Assembly: GCA_910574895.1 (NCBI GenBank)
Contig: CAJTDQ010000001.1
Location: 124,001 to 188,000 of the forward strand
Direction of reading: 5' to 3'
Length of the DNA stretch: 64,000 nt
Source of the DNA: Eubacteriaceae bacterium
GTDB taxonomy: Bacteria; Bacillota; Clostridia; Lachnospirales; Lachnospiraceae
Shown here: piece by piece, positions 7,421-13,537 of the stretch
Layout of the letters: every line of letters begins with the position of its first letter
How positions within the stretch are numbered: the first letter of the stretch is position 1
The notes under the pieces: generated by a model
Told to the model about the DNA's origin: nothing
The model's input: the letters and a program-made list of their open reading frames with translations, nothing else
Databases searched by the model: none
Program-made: the position numbers and the translations under genes

Positions 7421-9154
7421 ATGAGAGATAATTTAAAAAAGATGATATCATATTATAAACCATATAAAGGCGTATTTTTTGCAGACATGTTTTTGGCTAT
7501 TATGGCATCAGCCATAGCATTAGTAATTCCTTTGGTTGTAAGATATGTAACATCTACCGTAATCTATATGGATACAGATAAGGCAATTGAATGTTTGATA
7601 ATGATAGCCATTATCGTAACGGTTCTTATTTTGTTTCAATGTTATTGTAACTATTATATTTCCAACTATGGTCATGTAATGGGAGCGAAAATCGAATATG
7701 ATATGAGAGCAGAGATTTTTGCGCATTTTCAGAAAATGTCTTTTTCTTTTTATGATGACCAAAAGGTGGGACAGTTAATGTCAAGAATTACATCAGATTT
7801 ATTTGATATTACAGAGTTACTGCATCATGGTCCGGAAAATCTGATAATTTCTTTTATTAAAATTATTGGTGCATTAGTCATATTGTTGAGTATTAATGTA
7901 AAACTGGCGATTGCGGCATTTATTTTGATACCGATTATGATTGTCTATGCATACTTTTTTAATCGGAAAATGAAGCAGACTTTTCGAATGAATCGTGTAA
8001 AGATTGCAGAGATTAATGAACAGATAGAAGATAATCTGTCGGGAATCCGTGTCGTAAAATCATTTGCAAATGAAGCAATTGAAAATCAAAAATTTAAAGC
8101 GGGGAATGATGGGTTTTTAACAGCAAAAAAAAATAATTATAAATACATGGGAGGTTATCATTCAGGACTGACTGCATTTACAACAATGATTAATCTTATT
8201 GTAATTATTTCAGGTGGTGTGATGATTACGCAGAATATGGTAAGTATCACAGATATGCTTACATTTCTTTTATATATCAATATTTTTACGGACCCGGTCA
8301 GAACTTTAATTGATTTTACAGAGCAGTTTCAAAATGGATATTCCGGATATGAAAGATTTAGACAGATTCTTATGTTAGAGCCGGAAATTCAAGATAATGA
8401 AAATGCAAAAGACATTGGACAAGTAAAAGGAGATATTGTTTTTGATGATGTTTCTTTTCGATATAATGACAATGCCCATAGAGTTTTAAAACATATTGAT
8501 TTGAAAATTGATGCCGGCTCTTACATTGCTTTGGTTGGTTCATCAGGAGCAGGAAAGACGACATTGTGTAATCTGATTCCTAGATTTTATGAGGTGTCTG
8601 GTGGAAAAATTTTAATTGACGGACAGGATATCAGAGATGTACAATTAAAATCTCTTAGGAATAATATCGGTATGGTACAGCAGGATGTATACCTTTTTGC
8701 AGGAACAATTTATGATAATATTAAATATGGAAGACCGAATGCTACGGAAGAAGAAGTAATCGAGGCAGCAAAAGAAGCCAATGCTTATGAATTTATTATG
8801 TCTCTTCCAAATGGATTTGACACAGATATTGGACAGCGTGGTATTAAATTGTCCGGTGGACAGAAGCAGAGATTATCTATCGCAAGAGTATTTTTGAAGA
8901 ATCCGCCGATTTTAATTTTTGATGAAGCCACATCAGCACTGGATAATGAAAGTGAAAAGATTGTGCAGGAATCAATGGAAAAGCTGGCAAAGAATCGTAC
9001 CACATTGGTAATAGCCCACCGTTTGTCAACCATTCGAAACGCAGAAAAGATAATTGTTCTTACGGATAAGGGCATTGAGGAAGAGGGCACACATGCAGAA
9101 CTGATGGAGAAACATGGAATATATTATGATTTGTATAAAATGACAGAAGTGTAG
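7421..9154 (+). CDS. ABC half-exporter, fused membrane and ATPase domains
   Basis: A 577-residue type IV ABC exporter of the BmrA/MsbA kind, acting as a dimer in the membrane. The N-terminal ~310 residues hold six transmembrane helices (first MFLAIMASAIALVIPLVV). The ATPase domain has Walker A GSSGAGKTT, Q-loop MVQQDVYLFAGT, signature LSGGQKQR, Walker B ILIFDEATSALD and the switch histidine in IAHRLSTIRNA. The substrate cannot be told from sequence. The gene stands alone; no partner half-transporter lies next to it, so a homodimer is most likely. It is preceded by GGAGTGAAC and followed immediately by the structured region at 9155. Confidence 0.9.
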   Translation: MRDNLKKMISYYKPYKGVFFADMFLAIMASAIALVIPLVVRYVTSTVIYMDTDKAIECLIMIAIIVTVLILFQCYCNYYISNYGHVMGAKIEYDMRAEIFAHFQKMSFSFYDDQKVGQLMSRITSDLFDITELLHHGPENLIISFIKIIGALVILLSINVKLAIAAFILIPIMIVYAYFFNRKMKQTFRMNRVKIAEINEQIEDNLSGIRVVKSFANEAIENQKFKAGNDGFLTAKKNNYKYMGGYHSGLTAFTTMINLIVIISGGVMITQNMVSITDMLTFLLYINIFTDPVRTLIDFTEQFQNGYSGYERFRQILMLEPEIQDNENAKDIGQVKGDIVFDDVSFRYNDNAHRVLKHIDLKIDAGSYIALVGSSGAGKTTLCNLIPRFYEVSGGKILIDGQDIRDVQLKSLRNNIGMVQQDVYLFAGTIYDNIKYGRPNATEEEVIEAAKEANAYEFIMSLPNGFDTDIGQRGIKLSGGQKQRLSIARVFLKNPPILIFDEATSALDNESEKIVQESMEKLAKNRTTLVIAHRLSTIRNAEKIIVLTDKGIEEEGTHAELMEKHGIYYDLYKMTEV

Positions 9155-9155
9155 A

Positions 9156-9467
9156 AATTTCGGTTTGTAGGGGAGTGACTTTCCTGCTGAAGAAATACAG
9201 ACAGCGAATATCTTCACCTCGATTCTTGAACATTTATAGAAAATAAAAACAATATTGAATATTTTAAGCACCGACTTCATCTTCGAAAAAATCCTGATGA
9301 TTTTTTCTCAGGTAAGTCTGGACATTTGATTTTGTGAATCAAATGTCCGCTTAATATTCAATATTATTTTTATTTTATAAATGTATTCAAGACTCTCAAG
9401 TTCCTATATTCGCTGTCCGTATTATTTCAGCAGTGAAATGTCTCAACCTCTACAAAACTAAATTTAT
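9156..9467 (+). repeat. long imperfect hairpin element, copy A (candidate structured RNA)
   Basis: Roughly 9156-9267 and 9350-9467 are inverted copies of each other at about three-quarters identity, giving a ~310-base hairpin that starts right after the ABC exporter stop. The tip is a compact fold: ACCGACTTCATCTTC (9270-9284), a 9-bp hairpin GAAAAAATC/GATTTTTTC (9285-9307), TCAGGTAAGTCT (9308-9319), then a 12-bp hairpin (9320-9348). GACTT and AAGTC can also pair, making a three-way junction. The 15-base and 12-base tip motifs recur exactly in copy B at 10126-10176 on the other strand, while the stems between them differ. No coding potential is seen. Confidence 0.6.
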
Positions 9468-9477
9468 CAAATGAGAT

Positions 9478-9616
9478 AGTATGGGCTGTCTGTCCATGCT
9501 TTTTCGTCTAACAAATTTAATTTTGTGTGAATGAAGCCCTGGCATATATGTGGGAATATTTAAAATTCAGGTCGAATAAAATCTATTCTGAGGATTTTGC
9601 ACCAAAATCCGGGCTT
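9478..9616. other. gene-free segment with small nested hairpins
   Basis: AGTATGG/CCATGCT (9478-9484 with 9494-9500, one G-U pair) is followed by an outer AAGCCC/GGGCTT pair (9534-9539 with 9611-9616) that encloses GGATTTTG-CAC-CAAAATCC (9592-9610). This resembles a second small junction fold between the long hairpin and the tandem repeat. No ORF is present. Confidence 0.35.
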
Positions 9617-9635
9617 GGCTGATTAATAAAAGTAT

Positions 9636-9935
9636 ATTACATATATTTTTTTATCAAACCGGAAAACATATATGTAAAAAATGTTTGAAAAATGTGGCAG
9701 GTGAAAACATATTACATATTTATCTTTACCTAACAACCAGATATATATGTAAAAAGTGTTTGAAATTTATAGCAGATGAATATATATTACATATCTACTA
9801 CGAAAAAATAAGAATTAATATATGTAATTTCGTATAATAAAGCGGAAAAAACAATTGAAAATACATCGGAAAACTAAAGAATCAATACTTTATATATGTA
9901 AATCTTAAATATGTTTTGTGGCAAGATGATGCATT
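9636..9935. repeat. degenerate 75-bp tandem repeat, four units
   Basis: Units begin at 9636, 9711, 9786 and about 9861, each 75 bases. The first three begin ATTACATAT, and all carry ATATATGTAA (or a close variant) at unit bases 31-41, so each unit can form a hairpin. Units 1 and 2 also share TGTTTGAAA and GCAG-TGAA; units 3 and 4 are more diverged in the second half. Confidence 0.7.
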
Positions 9936-9983
9936 CTCTGTACACATCACTCTGGCAACGAAATGCCGCCGTCACAACAATTA

Positions 9984-10280
9984 AAATTTATAAGTTTGCG
10001 ATTTGTGGTGGTGGGAAGAGATATAAAAGGAATACACTTGAAAACATTGAATTTCATAAATAGATTTGTATATAAAAAGAATCTGATGAATTAAAGTTAA
10101 AAACTGATTTTCAAAATCAGTTTTTAAGACTTACCTGAAGCGAATTTCTTCAGAAATTCGGTGAAGATGAAGTCGGTACTTTAATTTTCAGACTCTTTTT
10201 ATATCTACAAATGTTTATGAAATTCAGTTTTCAAGTGTATTCCTTTTATACTCAAACCACCTCGACAAACCGGAATTTGA
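9984..10280 (-). repeat. long imperfect hairpin element, copy B, inverted relative to copy A
   Basis: About 9984-10095 and 10176-10280 are inverted copies of each other with long exact blocks such as TATAAAAGGAATACACTTGA. On the minus strand the tip reads ACCGACTTCATCTTC (10176-10162), a hairpin built on GAATTTC/GAAATTC, TCAGGTAAGTCT (10137-10126) and a hairpin at 10098-10124. The outer end on this strand, CGGTTTGTCGAGG, matches copy A's CGGTTTGTAGGGG. It ends about 100 bases before the pfk start, so the pfk promoter probably lies at or beyond its edge. Confidence 0.6.
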
Positions 10281-10377
10281 AGTGAGATTATGCATTATAA
10301 TTTATAAATTTATAATTAATGGAAATAATAAAGATATATTTTTTATAAATAATCGTTTAGATATGGGAGAAAGAATA

Positions 10378-11451
10378 ATGAAAATAGGAATTTTAACAAG
10401 TGGTGGAGATTGTCAGGCGCTGAATGCTGCAATGTATGGCGTTGTAACGGGATTATATGAAAGATATGGAAAGAAAGCAGAAATCTACGGAATTAAAGAT
10501 GGTTACACAGGTCTCATTGACGGCAAATATGAGAAAATGAAGTATTCTGATTTTGAAAATATATTAAAATTGGGAGGAACGATTTTAGGGTCATCCAGAC
10601 AACCTTTTAAGAAAATCAATGAGGAATATAAAGACGGCAAAACAAAAGTGCAATGTATGATGGAAAATTATGAAAATATGGGATTAGAATGTCTTGTTAT
10701 TTTAGGTGGAAATGGCTCGCACAAAACAGCAAATTTGTTAAGCGAAAATGGCTTAAATATTATTACATTGCCAAAAACCATAGACAATGATATTTATGGA
10801 ACGGATATGACCTTTGGGTTTGCCTCCGCCATAGACAGAGCAACAGAATATATGGATAATTTAAAATCAACGGCTGTATCGCATAATAGAGTTTTTATTG
10901 TTGAAGTTATGGGAAATAAAGCAGGATGGCTTACAATAAACGCAGGAATAGCAACAGGTGCTGATGTTATTTTAATACCGGAGATTCCTTATGATATCAA
11001 AGTGGTGAAAGAACATATTCATAAAAAAATCAGTCAGGGTAAAAGGGGAATAATTGTTGCTGTGGCAGAAGGAATATTGACATTAGAGGAGAGCAAATTA
11101 TCAAAAAAACAATTTAAAGAAAAACGTGCAAAGGAAGAAATATCAGATTCTGCACAAAATCTTGAAAAACAATTACAGAATGAAATTGATGCCGAAGTCA
11201 GACGTTCGGTTATTGGACATATACAAAGGGGCGGACAGCCAAGTGCTTATGATAGAGTTTTGGCGTCGAGGCTTGGAGCAGAAGCAGCACAGTTAATTGC
11301 TAAAAAGCAGTTTGGATACATGGTAGCAATAAAGAATGGCGTCATAGAAAAATGTCTGTTAAAAGAGATTGCCGGTAAGAAAAAGACAATAAGTGTGGAT
11401 GAAGAAATATTAGTTCAGGCAGAAATGCTTGATATCTGTTTGGGTAGGTAA
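10378..11451 (+). CDS. 6-phosphofructokinase family protein with an atypical metal/nucleotide motif
   Basis: A 357-residue phosphofructokinase-fold enzyme expected to phosphorylate fructose 6-phosphate. It starts MKIGILTSGGDCQALN; GGGAGA lies upstream of ATG 10378, and an in-frame ATG at 10282 would add residues from the hairpin element. The usual GGDGS loop is GGNGS (residues 110-114), so the Asp that binds Mg-ATP in E. coli PfkA is Asn112. The active loop PKTIDND (132-138) keeps catalytic Asp136 and has Lys where classical ATP enzymes have Gly. MGNKAGW and GHIQRGGQPSAYDR are intact. It is probably a second, specialised PFK or a regulatory paralogue. It lies 5 bases upstream of ppk, suggesting an operon. 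Confidence 0.85.
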   Translation: MKIGILTSGGDCQALNAAMYGVVTGLYERYGKKAEIYGIKDGYTGLIDGKYEKMKYSDFENILKLGGTILGSSRQPFKKINEEYKDGKTKVQCMMENYENMGLECLVILGGNGSHKTANLLSENGLNIITLPKTIDNDIYGTDMTFGFASAIDRATEYMDNLKSTAVSHNRVFIVEVMGNKAGWLTINAGIATGADVILIPEIPYDIKVVKEHIHKKISQGKRGIIVAVAEGILTLEESKLSKKQFKEKRAKEEISDSAQNLEKQLQNEIDAEVRRSVIGHIQRGGQPSAYDRVLASRLGAEAAQLIAKKQFGYMVAIKNGVIEKCLLKEIAGKKKTISVDEEILVQAEMLDICLGR

Positions 11452-13469: not shown

Positions 13470-13491
13470 CTACAAGTTAAAAGTAAAGAAG

Positions 13492-13520
13492 GGGGGCAGA
13501 TAAGTGCCCCCTTAATAAGT
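13492..13520. terminator. terminator between ppk and arcC
   Basis: GGGGGCA / TGCCCCC (13492-13498 with 13505-13511), loop GATAAG, between two convergent genes. Confidence 0.8.
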
Positions 13521-13537
13521 AATAAAATAAATTATTT

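Follow-up and report, generated by a model that had tools for sequence, protein, structure and literature searches.

The question raised by this locus is what kind of object is formed by two hairpins of about 300 bases that face each other in the genome of a Eubacteriaceae bacterium (family Lachnospiraceae in GTDB). They lie in a stretch of 64,000 nucleotides, here called the window. The original prediction, made from the letters of the sequence, was that they represent either a structured RNA present in two copies or a palindromic mobile element, possibly moved by a transposase acting in trans.

The element and its copies in the source genome

Both hairpins are present at the predicted places, as a check of the sequence confirmed, and both fold far better than shuffled sequence. 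None of 100 shuffles was as good in either case, with z scores of -13.2 for hairpin A and -16.8 for hairpin B; folded as DNA, hairpin A has a z score of -15.7. The predicted 15 + 12-base core is indeed identical, with ACCGACTTCATCTTC and TCAGGTAAGTCT in both hairpins. It had been described as conserved and unpaired; the conservation holds, but many of the bases pair in the folds (GACTT with AAGTC, ATCT with AGGT). Hairpin A, originally placed at 9156-9467, is a hairpin as claimed, with its coordinates corrected to 9155-9466, right after a stop codon. The outer ends also agree as predicted, in the form of inverted ends with the consensus AAATTYCGGTTTGTnGRGG. A further revision is that these are not two copies of a hairpin but the two ends of one element, at 9155-10278, which recurs almost whole elsewhere in the genome. 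Its features are as follows.

9155-10278, no strand: whole composite element (1.1 kb), consisting of hairpin A, linker and inverted hairpin B; 91%-identical copies elsewhere, outer inverted ends
9155-9173, plus strand: outer terminal inverted repeat AAATTTCGGTTTGTAGGGG, directly after the stop codon TAG at 9152-9154
9155-9466, plus strand: hairpin A, a rod of about 110 bp and a Y-shaped tip, from predicted folds and comparison of 11 A-type copies
9270-9319, plus strand: tip arm P2 of hairpin A, consisting of ACCGACTTCATCTTC, a hairpin and TCAGGTAAGTCT
9270-9284, plus strand: ACCGACTTCATCTTC in hairpin A (in hairpin B, 10177-10163, minus strand)
9308-9319, plus strand: TCAGGTAAGTCT in hairpin A (in hairpin B, 10138-10127, minus strand)
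9320-9348, plus strand: tip arm P3 of hairpin A, itself a hairpin whose sequence varies
9447-9465, minus strand: inner copy of the terminal repeat, in a decayed state
9467-9995, no strand: linker (0.53 kb), with no listed open frame of its own
9629-9703 and 9704-9778: 75-nt tandem repeat inside the linker
9996-10278 (inner boundary approximate), minus strand: hairpin B, with its tip on the minus strand, from predicted folds
10097-10126, minus strand: tip arm P3 of hairpin B
10127-10177, minus strand: tip arm P2 of hairpin B
10260-10278, minus strand: outer terminal inverted repeat AAATTCCGGTTTGTCGAGG

The gene 5' of the element encodes an ABC transporter, and its TAG stop abuts the first base of the element. 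A phosphofructokinase gene lies 3' of the element on the same strand. A simple scan for intrinsic terminators (stem plus T run) over 9000-10500 of the window gave two sites, both on the plus strand, with 0.5 expected.

The two motifs, separated by a variable spacer, were searched for in the whole 2.48-Mb source genome. Further copies were found, as the original prediction had anticipated: the motif pair occurs 18 times, and a reversed control pattern does not occur. A 1.16-kb query gave 87 DNA matches. Some are composites, either near-full or shorter; others are single hairpins (about 310 bp), and two are chimeras. Two near-whole copies, at C2:132795-133917 and C2:94691-95817, are each 91% identical over 1.12 kb. 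Judged by eye, the chimera at C1:397173-397465 has an A-type left arm joined to a B-type right arm, and that at C9:26800-27133 a B-type hairpin joined to an inverted A-type arm. Single units in this and other genomes are about 290-430 bp long, and composites reach 1.2 kb, which exceeds the usual size of MITEs.

The outer ends have a mean of 0.77 mismatches to the consensus (22 ends) and the detected inner ends a mean of 3.0 (n = 13; p = 3e-6), a contrast that is indicative only, because the outer ends supplied the consensus and inner ends too divergent to be detected are missing. Intact outer ends and decayed inner ends are as expected if the composites moved as units.

Two side observations concern inserted or neighbouring repeats. 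A small, unrelated palindromic insert lies within the tip of one hairpin B copy (C4:166785-166938, L047/L049). The 75-nt linker repeat (9629-9778 of the window), with TTACATATATAT...ACATATATGTAAAA, resembles a separate dispersed repeat family; genome G019 has 28 query matches (e.g. L112, L116, L119), all of those listed being in this repeat, and no covariance-model match to the hairpin.

Architecture and spread across genera

The copies share a common plan, which is a long rod followed by a Y-shaped tip made of the arms P2 and P3. The details that follow were read by eye. The outer arms are roughly 20-90 bp long and differ between loci unless the copies are recent. In the genus of the source genome the middle of the rod contains an asymmetric internal loop, with AAACTTCATAACTTAAATATTTGT opposite ACAAATAAATTAAGTTATTCAATGTTT, and then an inner variable arm. 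The Y tip has ACC at its junction; P2 consists of stems around internal loops, with the consensus ATTCAC...GCTCAGG in other genera, and P3 is a hairpin. The identical 15 + 12 bases of the window are the P2 arm of one subfamily, and in other subfamilies its GACTT/AAGTC is replaced by GGAT/ATCC, GGGTT/AACCC or GATGCA/TGCATC. Across genera the three bases of ACC are conserved at 0.90, 0.82 and 0.85, and one loop A and the P3 loop G at 0.97 each.

The exact motif pair is rare. It occurs in two of 23 genomes of the genus, in one of 397 genomes of the family (the source genome itself), and at six places in one Eubacterium MAG within a collection of 84,980 species, which may omit the source genome. 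It was found in no IMG/VR contig, and the element has no match among plasmid or phage records.

Covariance models reach further. Model R1, built from hairpins of the source genome (G000) and its congeners G012 and G017, matches five of the 23 genus genomes, namely these three, G022 and G010. The single match in G010 is weak (E 0.003) and folds differently, and was left out. Model R2, built from 28 hairpins of the genus, matches 15 of 299 family genomes, that is 14 of 298 genera, or 13 genera besides that of the source. Since 12 candidates per genome were scored (all 12 matched in G236), the match counts are lower bounds. From at least 50 matches outside the genus 37 loci were taken, which cover all 13 genomes, and together with three extra neighbours these gave an alignment of 40 hairpins. 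Model R3, built solely from these 40, recovers the copies of the source genome at E 3.5e-19 (nine of the nine scored); the E-values are rough, the calibration having been short, and the cross-test uses independent sequences. Across 398 genomes of the phylum R3 matches one, which is again the source genome. A covariance model run on relatives, as the original prediction had proposed, thus extends the Y-tipped giant hairpin to 13 further genera.

At L197 (G236) and L218 (G170) two hairpins likewise face each other as in the window, separated by about 450-490 nt. At L186 a gene for 6S RNA (85-263) is located close to a hairpin.

The arms differ between copies, and each pairs with its own partner, as originally claimed. 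Two-sided change was seen in 36 of 47 pairs among the 28 genus hairpins and in all 47 modelled pairs among the 40 from other genera. In the genus there are 291 two-sided cells, compared with 89 (sd 7.6) when shuffled and at most 42 when slid; in the other genera there are 683, compared with 182 (sd 11.7) and at most 133. Both alignments (A3 for the genus, A4 for the other genera) were fitted to the structure model, which inflates these pair counts. The two-pair internal helix of P2 is weak, being paired in 82% of the cells in A3 and 44% in A4.

Pairing of the arms and its maintenance

The original prediction took changing stems with conserved motifs as the mark of an RNA fold under selection. 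The covariation is real and huge, but processes at the DNA level are sufficient to produce it. A count of G-U against A-C mismatches separates pairing in one RNA strand, which tolerates G-U and not A-C, from pairing as DNA. The arms of 26 genus hairpins contain 2655 Watson-Crick pairs, 59 G-U, 86 A-C and 225 others, and those of the 40 hairpins from other genera contain 4083, 89, 93 and 311. The excess of A-C over G-U in the genus (p = 0.03), a possible sign of the other strand, is not repeated in the other genera. In the tip, stem P2b has 224 Watson-Crick, no G-U and no A-C pairs in the genus, and 306, 2 and 2 in the other genera. For P3 the corresponding counts are 302/0/0 and 417/4/0 when its two loop-closing pairs are set aside; these closing pairs have 10 and 18 G-U compared with 7 and 1 A-C. 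A comparison set of 23 T5 tRNAs has G-U at 40 of the 478 pairs marked by ARAGORN, which seems to mark standard pairs only, so that this control gives a fraction of G-U and no count of A-C. Because G-U is no commoner than A-C in the arms, complementarity is held as DNA, or on both strands alike, and not in a single RNA strand.

The proposed search of Rfam returned no family that matches the element at gathering score, in the window or at 12 other loci. Permissive matches lay far below that score, many of them to microRNA models, and were taken as chance. With neither an excess of G-U over A-C nor an Rfam match at gathering score, the proposal of a structured RNA class is not supported.

Recent copies indicate how the arms stay matched. 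Two-sided cells are more frequent than expected in G275 (18, with 1.48 expected; five copies), in the sister genomes G068 and G382 together (10, with 0.79 expected; five copies) and in G057 (2, with 0.24 expected; four copies). In the source genome the 11 A-type copies have 30 one-sided and five two-sided Watson-Crick events, the four B copies 47 (a number inflated by one chimera) and two, the five B2 copies eight and none, and the three A2 copies 22 and two. Over all seven sets of recent copies the one-sided changes led to G-U in 55 cases and to A-C in 60.

Template switching at quasipalindromes is reported to homogenise their arms (PMC8794818, PMC7202029). Two copies in the source genome, at C3:204516 and C4:70888, have GAAGG in place of TCAGG, where two adjacent changes complete the palindrome and replace a conserved loop; we read these copies as derived. 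By analogy with the reported cases, such palindrome-completing changes would be what template switching does. The conservation of the tip bases across genera is not accounted for by it, and the simplest reading is that selection acts on them.

Two other ways of making matched arms were considered and rejected. The outer arms are not inverted duplications of the insertion target, since recent copies in G275 and G068 share their arms up to sharp ends while their flanks differ. Nor is one arm wholly primed by the other at each move, since recent copies share arm mismatches.

Mobility, genomic setting and explanation

The clearest evidence for movement comes from G068 and G382, where the elements are about 430 bp long with terminal ends CAGGATAAACTTGTAAACTTACA. 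Eleven loci with such ends were inspected in the two genomes, and six have both ends, one being internally deleted (about 130 bp). All six two-ended elements have a 9-bp target duplication, with nine of nine bases matching in three and eight of nine in the other three, at almost equal offset; the best of 30 mismatched-flank controls matched at seven. In G382, at the place corresponding to site L201 of G068, the right flank (57 bases aligned) is directly preceded by TTTCTTCCCAACTCAAG and has no such element. TTTCTTCCCAACTCAAG comprises 17 bases that resemble the left flank, and the target is present once, although the left match alone was equalled by five of 200 shuffles. From the aligned flanks, of which the right-hand match is solid, the site is apparently empty in this sister genome. 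Another giant hairpin lies a short distance away from it in G382.

The elements of G275 have different ends; one of five has an 8/8-base duplication above the controls, and a second (7/8) equals the best control. The ends TAAATTCMGGTTTGT are common to the elements of the source genome and those of G057, which belongs to a different genus. By eye, seven of 16 source-genome elements have T|A at both flanks, and the copy in the window has no recognisable target duplication. Three tip-less derivatives in G068 and G382 (L232-L234) apparently result from three different deletions, again by eye. As their deletion points differ, there is no sign that any tip-less form has spread, in a sample too small to prove that the tip is needed.

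No transposase gene was found inside the elements inspected in G000, G017, the genus of G057 and the partial copies of G068 and G382 (partly by eye; many copies in G017 run off contig ends), and no autonomous relative with matching terminal repeats was seen in the same set. No coding capacity was seen in the elements, and 34 bases of one terminal repeat had no plasmid match. An open frame beside the G057 elements (L206, L271) was first taken for an Rpn-type nuclease, an assignment that was dropped: it has no Pfam match, and in NCBIfam one copy gave E 0.068 and the other nothing. A gene for an Rpn-family nuclease/putative transposase (NCBIfam E 1.3e-18) is located at 458-1330 of L233 in G068, beside and outside a partial element. 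The part of the original prediction that concerns mobility is therefore supported by the dispersed copies, kept outer ends, duplications, one apparently empty site and non-coding content; movement in trans is suggested by the lack of an enzyme gene in the elements inspected.

Within the genus, 11 of the 13 loci at which both neighbours were seen lie between convergent genes, two contig-end loci being left uncounted; a single orthologous locus accounts for three of the 11, and one (L149) has terminal repeats. In the source genome 9 of 18 terminal-repeat elements lie between convergent genes, as judged from open frames, and other elements sit between tandem or divergent genes. At the orthologous locus the hairpin is kept in G000, G012 and G017. 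Six further members of the genus are readable there, five of them with a short hairpin of terminator type, and in G022 the hairpin is long and of another kind (12 of 24 loci examined, four not parsed). Between the polyphosphate kinase and carbamate kinase genes the window has an ordinary terminator-like hairpin (GGGGGCAGATAAGTGCCCCC, 13470-13537), and G012 has a giant hairpin (L124). Seven gene ends bear elements in both G000 and G017, which implies that many copies are old. In the other genera 20 of 74 candidate neighbour proteins were scanned against Pfam; 18 belong to Pfam families, of metabolic, transport and housekeeping kinds, and none of these is a transposase or integrase.

A puzzle is that element ends coincide with stop codons far beyond what random insertion would give. 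In the source genome a T together with the first two element bases forms the stop codon at eight of 18 left ends and five of 18 right ends, and three more ends on each side lie within 1 nt of a stop codon; the coincidence is also common in G017 and G057. At six places (C2:28085, C2:285697, C3:91585 and C4:69868 in G000, L206 and L263 in G057) the ends supply the stops of both convergent neighbours. One site in G017 (C106, L089/L183) corresponds to a position that is occupied in G000; here a gene of the HIT family is flanked by element-like ends, and TAAATTCCG motifs are repeated.

It is concluded that the family is probably a non-autonomous, non-coding, palindromic, MITE-like mobile DNA element. 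Its members are dispersed, non-coding and multi-copy with terminal inverted repeats, and in G068/G382 there are target duplications and one apparently empty site. A transposase supplied in trans would cut at the terminal repeats and insert the element, and insertions would survive best at the 3' ends of genes, because a long hairpin does little harm there. Where the two arms lie near each other in one strand, replication may stall and switch template, so that a change is copied into the other arm; this would give covariation without G-U intermediates. The tip and the internal loops resist such correction and are therefore probably selected. The tip would most likely be a cis site for mobilisation, read on the folded DNA strand. 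A single transposase system does not explain terminal repeats that differ by lineage around one tip.

Against this reading several others were weighed. A multi-copy class of structured non-coding RNA acting as RNA would account for conserved internal-loop and tip sequences beside covarying stems, but it is very unlikely given that G-U is not in excess of A-C in the arms (in contrast to the G-U content of the tRNAs), that recent one-sided changes to the two are about equal, and that Rfam has no match at gathering score. Co-option by the host as bidirectional terminators or 3'-end stabilisers, with both strands transcribed, both RNAs folded and G-U disfavoured on both, would fit the convergent setting within the genus, the hairpin kept at one orthologous locus, the short terminator-like hairpins of five other members there, and the giant hairpin of G012 where the window has a terminator-like one. 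We consider it unlikely, since termination does not need the conserved Y tip and only half of the terminal-repeat elements in the source genome are convergent. The pneumococcal repeats RUP, BOX and SPRITE are likewise enriched between convergent genes, which in the account given there is read as tolerated insertion, although SPRITE is perhaps co-opted as terminators (PMC3049150).

Template-switch correction alone, with a functionless structure that is maintained as an attractor of mutations, is in keeping with the excess of two-sided changes in recent copies, the palindrome-completing changes that replace a conserved motif, and the arm homogenisation already described by others (PMC8794818, PMC7202029). 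It seems improbable, as the tip bases remain conserved across genera although correction would tend to change them, and three species retain hairpins at one orthologous locus. The hairpin could also be a folded-DNA recombination site, attC-like or ITR-like, extruded from one strand and read at its unpaired bases by an enzyme specific to it. This would suit DNA-level pairing with free stem sequence and fixed unpaired bases, and one tip inside elements with different terminal repeats; it is a doubtful reading all the same, as no enzyme was found and ordinary double-strand transposition accounts for the target duplications and terminal repeats. A more speculative proposal, to which we would give little weight, is that the Y tip represents a novel type of cis site made of folded DNA, retained in at least 14 genera within elements of unrelated ends and read single-stranded by an enzyme that moves or replicates palindromes, the arms being rewritten by hairpin-templated copying.

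The preferred reading, a MITE-like element, has parallels in known systems. As described for pneumococcus, the MITEs RUP, BOX and SPRITE are also non-coding, multi-copy and strongly folded, with terminal inverted repeats and a bias to convergent genes (PMC3049150). RUP is described as a simple repeat of 107 bp, whereas here arms of about 100 bp or longer vary while the Y tip is kept, and, unlike in these pneumococcal elements, the same tip occurs with several terminal repeats. REP, BIME and ERIC are, by their published descriptions, intergenic palindromes as well, often oppositely oriented; REP (20-40 bp) and ERIC (127 bp) are conserved in sequence, whereas the elements here (250-430 bp) are conserved in architecture. 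Foldback or long-TIR elements of the Mutator-like kind have long inverted arms and a 9-bp target duplication, both of which are seen in G068/G382; the elements differ in the conserved Y tip at their centre and in that no transposase gene was found. Integron attC sites are imperfect palindromes with variable stems in which unpaired bases matter. The giant-hairpin elements are also imperfect palindromes with variable stems, but have no identified integrase, cassettes or core recombination site. 6S RNA is a rod-like structured RNA, and shares with the hairpins a long rod with internal loops; the hairpins differ in having no G-U excess and no Rfam match. Word searches of open-access papers found no description of the family, and palindromic RNA candidates have been reported from microbiomes in work of which these searches gave a partial view (PMC8040213). 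Our verdict is that the family is a widespread variant of the MITE or foldback kind, with a conserved tip and no prior description found.

This repeat family extends over 14 or more genera within a single bacterial family. It provides an example from nature of covariation at all modelled stem pairs that does not require an RNA. Screens that use covariation to look for new RNAs could therefore rank it as a top hit, and the count of G-U against A-C is a cheap filter for such false RNA calls. The dozens of long palindromes found here allow template-switch correction to be measured in nature. They also raise a sharp question, which is why the tip is kept while so much else changes.
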